A stretch of DNA of 64,000 nucleotides from Hyphomicrobiales bacterium (lineage in GTDB: Bacteria > Pseudomonadota > Alphaproteobacteria > Rhizobiales > Rhizobiaceae), in contig UCLB01000004.1 in the NCBI GenBank assembly GCA_900473205.1, positions 62,001 to 126,000 on the forward strand, written 5' to 3'. Position 1 is the first letter of the stretch. Every line of letters begins with the position of its first letter. Made by a program: the position numbers and the translations under genes. Below, one piece after another: positions 55,403 to 59,532 of the stretch. A model generated the notes under the pieces. That model worked only from the letters and a program-made list of their open reading frames with translations. It was not told the origin of the DNA and did no database searches.

Positions 55403-55885
55403 ATGAGCAGACTGGACAGCTTCATTCGCCGCCTGACGGCGCAGCGGGACATTCTCAACCATGTCCATGCCGATCTGAACCTCCCAGCGGGCAATCCCGT
55501 CATGGAAATCGGGCTTGGTAATGGGCGCACCTTCAATCATCTGCGCGAGCTTTTCCCGGATCGTCGTATCGTCGCTTTCGACAGGGCCATGGGTGCGCAC
55601 GCCTCTTCGGTGCCTGATGACAATGATCTGGTAATCGGTGAAATCGCCGAGACGGCGCAGGCCTATGTCGGCGTTGAAGCGGGCCTCGTGCATGCCGATA
55701 TTGGTACCGGCTATCCTGAGAAGGATGCCATCACACTCACATGGCTGCCGCAGCTTGTGGCGGGAATGTTGGCCAAGGGCGGTGTCGCCGTCAGCGGTCT
55801 TCCATTGGAGGAGAAAAGCCTCAACCCGCTGCCTATCCCGGCCTCTGTTCCCGAAGATCGGTACTTCCTCTACCGGAAAATCTAG
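55403..55885 (+). CDS. small class I SAM-dependent methyltransferase
   Basis: A 160-residue protein with a SAM motif I variant, VMEIGLGNGRTFNHL (about residues 33-47), and the following acidic residue in VAFDRAM. I chose the ATG at 55403 because GGAAGAGAAG lies just upstream. Its final codon and stop (TAG, 55883-55885) lie in the left terminal repeat of the palindromic element. The small size suggests a small-molecule or sugar substrate; unproven. Confidence 0.75.
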   Translation: MSRLDSFIRRLTAQRDILNHVHADLNLPAGNPVMEIGLGNGRTFNHLRELFPDRRIVAFDRAMGAHASSVPDDNDLVIGEIAETAQAYVGVEAGLVHADIGTGYPEKDAITLTWLPQLVAGMLAKGGVAVSGLPLEEKSLNPLPIPASVPEDRYFLYRKI

Positions 55886-56156
55886 AGCGCTTCCTTGTTA
55901 AATGGAGACAGTTCTGTTGGTTCAAACGGGATCGACTGCTTGTCCGGACGGCGCGTGCCGTAGCCTTAGCATACGGCCAAGCCGTCCGGGCAAGCAGACG
56001 GCCCGTTTCAACCAACCCGAAGGGCCGGGCATATTTCCGCCAGGGCTAAGGCGATCGGCTCGACCGTACCTTTGGGTATGCCCTTCGCCGATCGCCTTAG
56101 CCCTGACGAAAATCTGCTCCGGCAGAACGTTTCCATTTAACAAGGAAGCGCTCTAG
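55882..56156. repeat. 275-bp nested palindromic element (MITE/RIME-like)
   Basis: Perfect 25-base terminal inverted repeats (55882-55906 and 56132-56156; ends CTAGAGCGCTTCC... and ...GGAAGCGCTCTAG) enclose two large hairpins. Hairpin 1 (55917-56015) has a 14-base outer stem with one mismatch, a 17-base middle stem with one G-U and a 6-base tip. Hairpin 2 (56041-56105) has a perfect 19-base stem. The single strand can fold as a three-way junction. It resembles rhizobial intergenic mosaic elements (RIME) or a MITE; I cannot assign a family. It ends both convergent genes. Confidence 0.85.
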
Positions 56157-57817
56157 GCTGGTAGAAAAATCTGGCTTTCGGTCTCTGAGATCAGAAAGAT
56201 TTTCATCTGCGAGCTTTTGCCGCGAATGGGAATCGTGCGGCTTTGCAGCGTTTTGACGTCATGGCCGGATTGCCGCAGCACGGGTTCTGAAACGACGATG
56301 GCCGTGTCGAATTCCTTGGCCGCACTTTCCAGCCTGCTGGCAACGTTGACGGTGTCGCCAATCGCCGTGAGGTTCTTCGCGCCGCCATAACCCATGACGC
56401 CGACGATCGAAGGGCCTGCGTGAATGCCGATGACGATGCGCAGCTTCACCGCAAACTGATTTTCCAGCTCTTCGTTGAGCGTTTCTATGTTGCGCAGAAT
56501 GAGCGCTGCGGCTTTCAGTGCATCGCGGCTTGCCGTTTCCTTGTTGCCCTCAAGGCCGAACAGCGCCATGGCGCCATCGCCAATGAATTTATCCAGCCGT
56601 CCGCCCGCCTGCTCCACGGCTTGCCCCACCACGGTGAAATAGCGGTTGAGCAGAAACACCATATCATAGGGCAGGCGCGCTTCTGACAGAGCCGTAAAAT
56701 TGCGAAGATCGCAAAACAGGACGGCGATTTCTTCCTCGCGGCCGGGGCGGATCGGTTCGCCGCTGGCTGGAATGTCGCTTTGCTGTTTGGACGCCAGCAG
56801 CAAGGCCACGTTGAGATTATGCTTCGGACGAAGCTGGCAGGCGAGCCGCACGTCGGAATCGGCATGGATACGCTGAAGCGTCGCGCGCTCCATCGAGGAT
56901 GGTTCCGGCAGAGGCCCCTGCGTCTCGATGATCCGCACCCGGCAGGTGGAACAGCGTCCCTTGCCGCCACAAGCCGAAAAATGGGCAACATTGCCGGAGC
57001 GACTGGCTTCCAGCACGCTGAGCCCCGCAGGCGCACGCACCATCGCGCCGTGATCATAGCGAATTTCGATGGAGTTTGATCTTTGCCGCAGACTGCGTAC
57101 ACCACGCAGAACGAAGACCAGCAGAACCGCTCCGCCGAAGGTGGCCTTTGCGGTTCTTGTAAAGGTGTCTATGGCTGCTTCAAGCTCGGCCTGATTGGCA
57201 TGCACAACACGCGGCGGCGGGGGATTGTACTCCATCTCCCGGCCCGCATCGCTGAAGCCTAGAAGAGCAAGGATTGGCATCAGCACGGCCACCGTCAGCA
57301 GATAGGGCGAAATGCGCTTGTACCAGTCCCGGTAGCGCAGCCAGAAGAATATTCCCAAACATCCGTGCAGCCATATCAGCACCAAGGCTACGCTTTGGCG
57401 CAGACCGAGGAGAGGGTTACGGATCCAGAAATTGTAAATGACGGTCTCATAACCGACATCGATGCCATAGAGCATGCGCGACAGTCGTATGCCGCTGGCA
57501 TGGTCGATGATGAGATAGGGTATGATGAGCCCGATGAAGATTTGCAGCGCTTCGCGCACCGGCATTTTCAGCGTGCGGCGGACATAGATGGAGCGCAGGA
57601 CCAGTAGGATATGGGTCAGAACCGCGCCATAAAGAATGAGGCTGCTGAGAGGATTGAGCCAGAGAAGGCTAAACCACATGCGCCCATATTCGGCGGTTTC
57701 TATCGAGACCAGCGCCAGAGCGTGGTTCGACAGATGCGTGAAGACGAAAGATAGCATGATGAGGCCGGACAGCAATCGTGCACGCCTGAGCGACGTTTCC
57801 GACACGATATGAGCCAT
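56153..57817 (-). CDS. cyaC: membrane/ferredoxin/adenylate cyclase fusion (CyaC-like)
   Basis: A 554-residue fusion. An N-terminal six-helix membrane part (about 10-240) has His in THLSNHALAL, TH in the third span, DHAS and WLHG, as in fumarate-reductase-type diheme cytochromes. A 2Fe-2S ferredoxin domain follows with ACGGKGRCSTC and a last Cys in RLACQL (about 284-327). The C-terminal class III cyclase has VLFCDLRNFTALSE (about 369), GDGAMALFG and GDTVNVASRLE. This is the Sinorhizobium CyaC architecture, where quinone redox state controls cAMP output. I chose the ATG at 57817 over an in-frame TTG at 57856 because of the ribosome site. The stop is supplied by the palindromic element. Confidence 0.85.
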   Translation of the reverse strand: MAHIVSETSLRRARLLSGLIMLSFVFTHLSNHALALVSIETAEYGRMWFSLLWLNPLSSLILYGAVLTHILLVLRSIYVRRTLKMPVREALQIFIGLIIPYLIIDHASGIRLSRMLYGIDVGYETVIYNFWIRNPLLGLRQSVALVLIWLHGCLGIFFWLRYRDWYKRISPYLLTVAVLMPILALLGFSDAGREMEYNPPPPRVVHANQAELEAAIDTFTRTAKATFGGAVLLVFVLRGVRSLRQRSNSIEIRYDHGAMVRAPAGLSVLEASRSGNVAHFSACGGKGRCSTCRVRIIETQGPLPEPSSMERATLQRIHADSDVRLACQLRPKHNLNVALLLASKQQSDIPASGEPIRPGREEEIAVLFCDLRNFTALSEARLPYDMVFLLNRYFTVVGQAVEQAGGRLDKFIGDGAMALFGLEGNKETASRDALKAAALILRNIETLNEELENQFAVKLRIVIGIHAGPSIVGVMGYGGAKNLTAIGDTVNVASRLESAAKEFDTAIVVSEPVLRQSGHDVKTLQSRTIPIRGKSSQMKIFLISETESQIFLPA

Positions 57818-57987
57818 GCTTCCTGTCTCCGGTTGGCTATGTTCACCATGGGGCAATGTGCCAGGGGAGACGTCCCTGCAGAAAGCCGCTCGCTGCTATA
57901 CTCTAATGCTTTGAGAAGCAGAATAGATCAATGATCACGTCATCGGCATTTTGAAACGCGTGCGACCGCTGGGCCCGACGCGTCTCT

Positions 57988-58848
57988 TCAAAGCTCTATG
58001 GTCTGGCCGTCCCATGCGGCGAAGGCACCGGCGAATTCCTTTTTCGCATCCGCTTCGATGATTTCAAGCTCGCCGTCCGTGCGGAAAGGCGCGTGATGGA
58101 TGAGGCCGACGCTTTTGGCATTGGCGTGCTTGGCCAGAAGAACGGCCTGCTGCCATGAGGAGTGGCCGTAACCGCGATAGGTTTCCATCTCGGCATCGGT
58201 GAAACATGCGTCGTAGAGAAACAGGTCCACATTGTCGATCAGCTTCAAAACCGACTTGTCCAGCTTTCCGGTCTCGTGCTCCGTATCGGTGATGATGGCG
58301 AAGCTGCGGCCCTGCCAGTCGATGCGGTAGCCGATGGCATTGCCGGGATGGTTCAGCATGCCTGTGGTGATGTTCAGTTCGGGGTGAACCGGCAACACGT
58401 CACCCGCCTTGAAATCCTTGGTGATGATCTGGGCGCAGCAGATGTCTAGGGGAGCGGGGAACCAGGGCGGGCTCATGAATTCGGCCAGCATTTCCCGCGT
58501 GGTTTTCTGCCCGGCAAGATGGCCGGACCATATGCGCACATCGTTCTCACGATTGAAGAAGGGTTTGAAATAGGGGAAGCCGACGATGTGATCGTAGTGG
58601 CAATGGGAGAAGAACATGTTGACATCACCGATGCCCTCAGCCTTCAGCGCCTGACCGGCGGGCAAGAGGCCCGAGCCCGCATCGAACAGCAAGACGTGGT
58701 CTCCGCACCTCACTTCGATGCAGATCGTGTTGCCACCATATTTTTGGAATTTTTCTCCTGAGACGGGAAGCGTTCCTCTTGCTCCCCAGATCTTGACCCG
58801 AAATTCCTGTTTATTGTCCCGACGATGATCGTCGGAATGCAACGCCAT
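57988..58848 (-). CDS. metallo-beta-lactamase-fold hydrolase
   Basis: A 286-residue MBL-fold protein with the metal motif SHCHYDHIVG (HxHxDH), a further His in MLNHPGNAIGYR, Asp in ITDTEH and a C-terminal HHAPFRTDG. It belongs to the lactamase_B_2-like group that includes phosphodiesterases. I chose the ATG at 58848 (MALHSDDHR) because GGGGTG lies just upstream. It lies between a cyclic-nucleotide-binding gene and the cyclase, so cyclic nucleotide hydrolysis is a reasonable hypothesis; no residue in the sequence proves it. Confidence 0.82.
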   Translation of the reverse strand: MALHSDDHRRDNKQEFRVKIWGARGTLPVSGEKFQKYGGNTICIEVRCGDHVLLFDAGSGLLPAGQALKAEGIGDVNMFFSHCHYDHIVGFPYFKPFFNRENDVRIWSGHLAGQKTTREMLAEFMSPPWFPAPLDICCAQIITKDFKAGDVLPVHPELNITTGMLNHPGNAIGYRIDWQGRSFAIITDTEHETGKLDKSVLKLIDNVDLFLYDACFTDAEMETYRGYGHSSWQQAVLLAKHANAKSVGLIHHAPFRTDGELEIIEADAKKEFAGAFAAWDGQTIEL

Positions 58849-59040
58849 GATACACCCCAATTTACCACGAGCGCCCCAAGCTCCTCCTATGGGCACCGTG
58901 CTATCTTTCCTGTCTTTGCCCCAGCCTTCCGGGAGACAGCTTATGTCTCCGCCATTAGTACGCCCAGCATTTCAGTTTTATTACAATAGCACCACTTTTA
59001 TTTTTCTTTCGAATAATGGCGCTGGAGAATGGTGTTTCTT

Positions 59041-59532
59041 TTAAGCGTTGGATCCCGACCGCGCTTTGCTGAGTTCCGACGTCGTCTGTGTCAGACGTTC
59101 GGCCAGCACACGCATCACCTTGATCGTTACATCGGGGAAATCGGACATCAGCTTGAAGAATTGCTCCTTGCCGATCCGCAGTGCTTCCACGGACGTCGAG
59201 GCGCGCACGGTTGCGGTTCTGACGCTGTCGCAGAGAATGGCGATTTCACCGACGATGGCGTTGCCGCTCATTTCGGTCAACTTTATCTGGCCGGACGGCG
59301 AGTCTATCAGCACATCCACCTTGCCTGTCAGCAGTACATAGGCAGCATCGCCAAGATCACCCTGGCGGAACAACTCGTCCCCGGCATGGTAGGAAACCCG
59401 ATCAGATGCAAATGCCAGCAACTTCAGCTTGGAAGGTTCCATTTCGCTGAAGAAGGGAACGCGTTTCAGCATCTGAATTTCGTCTTTGAAAAGCATTGCC
59501 TTTTCCTGTCCGTGTTCCAGTTCGATCGCCAT
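59041..59532 (-). CDS. cyclic-nucleotide-binding domain protein
   Basis: A 163-residue protein made of one CNB domain, with the phosphate-binding cassette VGEIAILCDSVRTATVRA (Gly95, Glu96, Arg105, Thr106), the residues that usually contact cAMP or cGMP. It has no DNA-binding helix-turn-helix, so it is not a CRP-type regulator. It starts 3 bases after the ABC-protein stop. An internal ATG at 59496 (MLFKDEIQ) has a better ribosome site (AGGAAAAGG) and may be the real start, giving 151 residues. Confidence 0.88.
   Translation of the reverse strand: MAIELEHGQEKAMLFKDEIQMLKRVPFFSEMEPSKLKLLAFASDRVSYHAGDELFRQGDLGDAAYVLLTGKVDVLIDSPSGQIKLTEMSGNAIVGEIAILCDSVRTATVRASTSVEALRIGKEQFFKLMSDFPDVTIKVMRVLAERLTQTTSELSKARSGSNA

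Follow-up and report, generated by a model that had tools for sequence, protein, structure and literature searches.

How do two genes that face each other come to take their stop codons from the two ends of one palindrome? The question is raised by a 64,000-nucleotide stretch of Rhizobiaceae DNA (the window), in which a SAM-dependent methyltransferase gene (PF12692; 55340-55885, plus strand) converges on a cyclase gene with Fer2 and Guanylate_cyc domains (56153-57856, minus strand). The methyltransferase open reading frame ends at 55885 with the TAG at 55883-55885, and the cyclase frame, on the minus strand, ends at 56153 with a TAG that is the complement of 56153-56155. These ends confirm the claim of a preliminary description of this DNA that the hairpin-rich element between the genes supplies both convergent TAG stops. 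On the minus strand of 56153-59532, the Fer2-cyclase protein adjoins metallo-beta-lactamase-fold and cyclic-nucleotide-binding proteins, and the group is possibly a redox-sensing cyclase with its effector.

The element is bounded by terminal inverted repeats at 55882-55906 (plus strand) and 56132-56156 (minus strand), which are perfect over 25 nt and 96% identical over 28 nt. Between them lie a left inner hairpin, H1 (55916-56016), and a right inner hairpin, H2 (56024-56123), whose stem joins 56041-56059 to 56087-56105 in 19 perfect pairs. Both the 25-bp repeats and the two hairpins with stems of up to 19 pairs are therefore present as first described. Folding, which had been proposed as a check, gave a minimum free energy of -193.6 kcal/mol, whereas 200 shuffles gave -93.5 +/- 5.0 (z -20); because none of the 200 was as good, the fold goes beyond chance. 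An end scan that did not ask for TA found this dinucleotide outside GAGCG at most ends of the family, mostly preceded by C or T. Since TA recurs next to GAGCG across the family, we take the unit to be 269 bp plus a TA duplication. The mobile core (55885-56153, GAGCG...CGCTC) lies between TAs at 55883-55884 and 56154-56155; the left TA forms the methyltransferase stop with G55885, and the right TA forms the cyclase stop on the minus strand with C56153. C55882 and G56156 are target bases outside the core, and the left terminal repeat consists of the target C, the TA duplication and 22 nt of element. The hairpin-rich element originally described is thus real, but its proposed length of 275 bp included the TA copies and the outer C and G of the target.

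The recurring ends and a size class of 269-275 bp across the family support this core, which has room for at most 89 codons and is too short for a transposase gene. The other main size classes are 29, 144-181 and 335-365 bp. A 335-bp element with TTAGAGCACTTCC-type ends lies at 1503-1837 of a locus (L023) from another family of the order (G048), and in 351-bp (L027, L050-L052) and 365-bp (L053) copies of one genome (G010) the halves of the element stand apart, with about 83 additional bases between them. Of 60 kept copies, 21 (including L037 1522-1550 and L006 1502-1530) are solitary 29-bp palindromes with a TA on either side. This form equals the product of a deletion between the GGAAACG[CT]TC repeats found at either end of the larger form, and it is therefore probably a scar of the larger element.

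A lone copy would count against the mobility that had been suggested for the element. The window genome carries a second full copy, 98% (98.1%) identical, on another contig, together with partial copies and two 29-bp forms, and more copies occur in other genomes. Within the window genus, 14 of 37 genomes contained a match, as did 2 of 24 genomes from other families of the order (16 of 61 relatives in all). Family-wide, 25 of 199 genomes and 18 of 109 genera matched at E <= 0.001, some of them through short matches to the ends alone. A strict search with the 25-mer alone hit 3 of the 199 family genomes, as if the element belonged to one genus; the full-length search found the wider spread. Within a second genus, probably Rhizobium, 36 of 60 genomes matched, with up to 53 matches each. 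Plasmids gave 157 matches among 72,556, of which 114 covered at least 80% of the query and 146 are named Rhizobium; a search of phages returned no match. In four annotated plasmid regions that we inspected, LysR and Lrp/AsnC genes terminate within the final four bases of a copy, the end of a dienelactone hydrolase gene falls 20 nt into a copy, and one region has a copy without a listed gene at either end.

We then compared orthologous loci for empty sites, as the preliminary description had proposed. The methyltransferase is present in 38 of 39 genus genomes, and the element is absent from the 127 nt after its stop in 28 of 30 orthologous loci. In all 30, the protein ends one residue after YRK. 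The empty site of Rhizobium skierniewicense DSM 26438 (G021) reads aagataTAGGCTGACTAAACG, compared with aaaatcTAGGCTGGTAG for the rejoined window. The rejoined flanks contain a single CTAG, in which the methyltransferase reads ATC TAG and the cyclase reads GCC TAG (...CTA CCA GCC TAG, by hand). The idea that the element was kept to supply stop codons is not supported by these comparisons: the rejoined site already stops both genes, and in the 28 element-free relatives the methyltransferase terminates at this very codon. The cyclase protein is two residues shorter in five relatives (G002, G009, G016, G021 and G027; by hand), so that earlier stop was lost in the window lineage, before or after the insertion. 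As far as the sequences tell, the cyclase stop may have been located elsewhere before the element arrived.

In one other genome, that of Agrobacterium rubi (G002:C41:33871-34145; L010 / L082), this stop codon is interrupted at the identical TA by the element in the opposite orientation. This copy shares 94.8% identity with the window copy, whereas the methyltransferase genes agree at 61% of their third codon positions; the window copy, for its part, is closer to its sister in its own genome (98.1%). The simplest reading is that the window and A. rubi insertions would have been independent. An inversion followed by homogenisation could also have produced the A. rubi copy, and tree support among these copies is low. 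The tree also places 11 copies of R. skierniewicense in one clade, indicating a burst.

The ends of the element point to the transposase family that may have moved it. Insertion of IS630-family elements at TA with duplication is established according to a study on ISY100 (PMC2170065), which also cites work on preferential transposition to the TA in CTAG. TA flanks both ends of 59 of 69 second-genus copies, which were chosen regardless of TA, and of 54 of 79 candidates in a catalogue that allowed at most one wrong base a side; C or T precedes the TA at 141 of the 158 junctions in this catalogue. One genome of the window genus (G005) holds the IS630-family element whose ends match best, 1052 bp long with TAGAGCGTTTCC at both ends; a stop lies within its transposase frame, and no copy of the 269-bp element was found in that genome. 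Another (G016) has seven IS630 copies, six of them paired at 1051 bp, in which one end matches TAGAGCGTTTCC exactly and the opposite end deviates from it by one or two bases, and G010 carries a decayed 673-bp IS630 with TAGAGCGTTTCC at both ends. The window copy ends in TAGAGCGCTTCC, one base off TAGAGCGTTTCC, and the IS630 match to the element spans only about 12 bp, TA included. In the second genus, Y-TA-GAG stands at both ends of 17 of 30 IS630 loci, 1038-1072 bp apart, as found by a script that sought TA[GA]AG and left only the Y and the spacing unforced. Relatives of the IS630 transposase were detected in 15 of the 39 genus genomes. None was found in the window genome, and R. skierniewicense, the genome with the copy burst, gave two weak DDE_3 matches without such ends and no IS630 transposase relative in a second search.

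Together, the second copy, the copies in other genomes, the 28 empty sites among 30 loci and the TA duplication uphold the earlier suggestion of a non-autonomous mobile element in a stop codon. We conclude that the element is very probably a MITE of IS630 (Tc1/mariner) type that occurs in many Rhizobiaceae genomes, was inserted here at a CTAG stop and survives mainly at gene 3' ends. An IS630-family transposase, presumably acting in trans, would have inserted the element at the TA of this CTAG, which was the methyltransferase stop and, in the rejoined sequence, the cyclase stop on the other strand. Insertion duplicated the TA. Either end of the element starts with G, so that, as read from the sequence, each TA became TAG again and neither gene was damaged. 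A simple insertion event could explain this striking convergent gene arrangement.

We asked how often copies interrupt stop codons, using a codon-usage gene caller and rebuilt empty sites. Longest-open-frame counts were replaced by this caller because the simpler method mistakes ORFs in the wrong frame for genes; two codon-usage runs placed 18 and then 20 of 60 copies in stop codons. Of the 57 non-genic copies in the window-genus set, nearly all of which come from that genus, 20 lie within a pre-existing stop codon, compared with 71 of 578 non-genic YTAR control sites (odds ratio 3.9, p 3e-5). The second genus gave 25 of 61 non-genic copies and 50 of 383 controls (odds ratio 4.6, p 1e-6). The stop lies on both strands in 4 of the 20 copies, the window copy among them, and in 3 of the 25. 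Thus, as controlled comparisons in both genera show, more than one-third of the non-genic copies of this widespread rhizobial MITE lie within a stop codon that they rebuild.

These counts depend on which copies were admitted. To reach 60 copies, 19 of 79 candidates were omitted: sixteen 29-bp calls that were not flanked by TA at both ends or that represented the inner edge of a larger copy, two with both TAs damaged, and a decayed IS630 in L117. Three full copies missed by the filter or the end search (L026, L047 and L048) were added back, giving 20/57 instead of 20/54, and L023 from the other family was kept (20/56 without it). The sites are YTAR, like the controls, in 49 of 60 cases, and YTAR copies alone (of the 63) gave 18/46. 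For the second genus, 2 of 69 copies were skipped and the orthologous-looking pairs L352/L372, L375/L376 and L353/L380 were each counted once, giving 25/61 instead of 26/64. Controls came from 20 stretches of 20 kb from four genomes, and for the second genus from 20 stretches from seven genomes.

Copies are rare inside genes (6/60 versus 276/854 controls; 3/67 versus 140/523 in the second genus) and frequent between convergent neighbours (27/57 non-genic copies versus 82/578 control sites; 25/61 versus 80/383 in the second genus, p 0.001). Stop codons showed no preference over the next 1-40 nt downstream in either the window-genus set (20:19 versus 71:35, p 0.12) or the second genus (26:19 versus 50:46, p 0.59); survival would account for the pattern without targeting. 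Copies cluster at gene 3' ends, and stop codons belong to that zone. They would persist there because insertion at such sites is presumably harmless.

Could the hairpins nevertheless serve the two genes? It is possible, though unlikely, that the element has become a co-opted bidirectional 3'-end module, kept since its hairpins end or protect both convergent mRNAs. The convergent-gene enrichment in both genera and the very stable fold agree with such a role, as does covariation: both partners changed in 32 of 116 pairs, compared with 19.5 in shuffles and at most 10 in slid controls, and these changes span the terminal stem and both hairpins across 35 copies. However, selection against insertion in genes and promoters yields the same convergent bias, and 28 of 30 loci manage without the element. 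A search of 55600-56500 for a G+C-rich stem followed by a T run found one site, with 1.2 expected by chance. G.U and A.C are tolerated to a similar degree in the terminal stem, as would be expected of a DNA palindrome: there are 7 versus 8 columns in 35 copies, 7 versus 12 in 69 copies, and no strand preference. The inner hairpins of the 35 copies had G.U versus A.C columns of 21 to 5 in H1 and 5 to 13 in H2. This asymmetry, expected of an RNA hairpin on the transcript's entry side, was set as a prediction after the 35 copies and failed on 69, two of which (L335 and L336) were already among the 35 (27 to 18 for low-frequency columns, p 0.23; 35 to 21 for all columns, p 0.08). Folding energy favours the plus strand for H1 in 33 of 35 copies and the minus strand for H2 in 35 of 35 (alignment A1), and the same asymmetry appears in 68/69 and 69/69 second-genus copies, where it rests on few inherited positions.

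Palindrome repair and the upkeep of transposase sites can yield the same covariation as RNA selection. The paired changes that would keep the two arms complementary fit such maintenance at the DNA level as well as they fit RNA, and strong covariation in a repeat need not signal a selected RNA. The stems may also be under selection as RNA. The bidirectional terminator or RNA role put forward in the preliminary description thus gained no support from terminator sites, which did not exceed chance, or from the strand-specific RNA prediction, which failed; the convergent-gene enrichment is still compatible with the terminator idea. The family offers many natural insertions for asking whether such hairpins alter mRNA 3' ends.

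It is quite unlikely that the element is a Rhizobium-specific intergenic mosaic element (RIME), even though the two are alike as palindromic intergenic repeats of the Rhizobiaceae. RIMEs, reportedly described by Osteras in 1995, are said to carry two large palindromes, as this element does. RIME1 and RIME2 of that work are said to measure 108 and 109 bp, compared with a 269-bp unit here (other classes 29, 144-181 and 335-365 bp), and this difference in size sets the element apart. A RIME copy reportedly sits between chvI and chvG. The element was absent from 17 pckA-chvI-chvG regions (13 shown to contain both genes; none identifiable as a RIME strain), and 30 pckA loci plus these 17 regions gave only 20 to 37 nt matches. 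Among the 157 matching plasmids, just 9 carry the name Sinorhizobium; two reports (PMC2573895, PMC2245857) name RIMEs as annotated intergenic repeats of Sinorhizobium meliloti.

We consider it quite unlikely that this is a selfish unit tuned to gene ends, whose G-initial ends would rebuild TAG in any TA-containing stop on both strands and whose inner hairpins would each be kept as RNA for the transcript entering from its side, making a ready-made two-way gene end. A long-conserved structural RNA or regulatory element belonging to this gene pair is hardly credible, despite the strong fold and covariation, since it is contradicted by the 28 of 30 loci that lack the element after the methyltransferase and by its occurrence at dozens of unrelated sites. 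Rfam contained no match at gathering score, and at E up to 1 gave six sub-threshold matches, five of them to microRNA families. The hairpins and matched terminal repeats are features of the element itself, and any benefit to the host is probably small.

The element belongs to a known kind, the IS630-related MITEs, and forms a broad family within it, whose habit of occupying stop codons is quantified here. A literature search in which most subscription papers lay outside the scope found no description of this element. It resembles RUP of Streptococcus pneumoniae (PMC2229807) and the IS630 family (ISY100, PMC2170065) in being short and non-coding with IS630-like terminal repeats, TA target duplication and many intergenic copies. 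RUP is 107 bp in that account, compared with 269 bp here, and, unlike RUP as described there, the element contains a pair of nested inner hairpins, comes in size classes that range from 29 to 365 bp, and has a large proportion of its copies in stop codons. Repeat ends that supply TAG stops have already been published for GTAG REPs, according to PMC3733652. These are palindromes of 20-40 bp with GTAG at one end, and a 269-bp element with GAGCG ends is not one of them; here the TAG consists of the duplicated target TA and the first G of an IS630-type end. MITEPsy1 of Pseudomonas syringae (PMC3189936) is likewise a MITE that inserts at CTAG or YTAA, but it differs in its 4-bp duplication, its length of 100 bp and its repeats, which are related to those of ISPsy2 (IS5 family).
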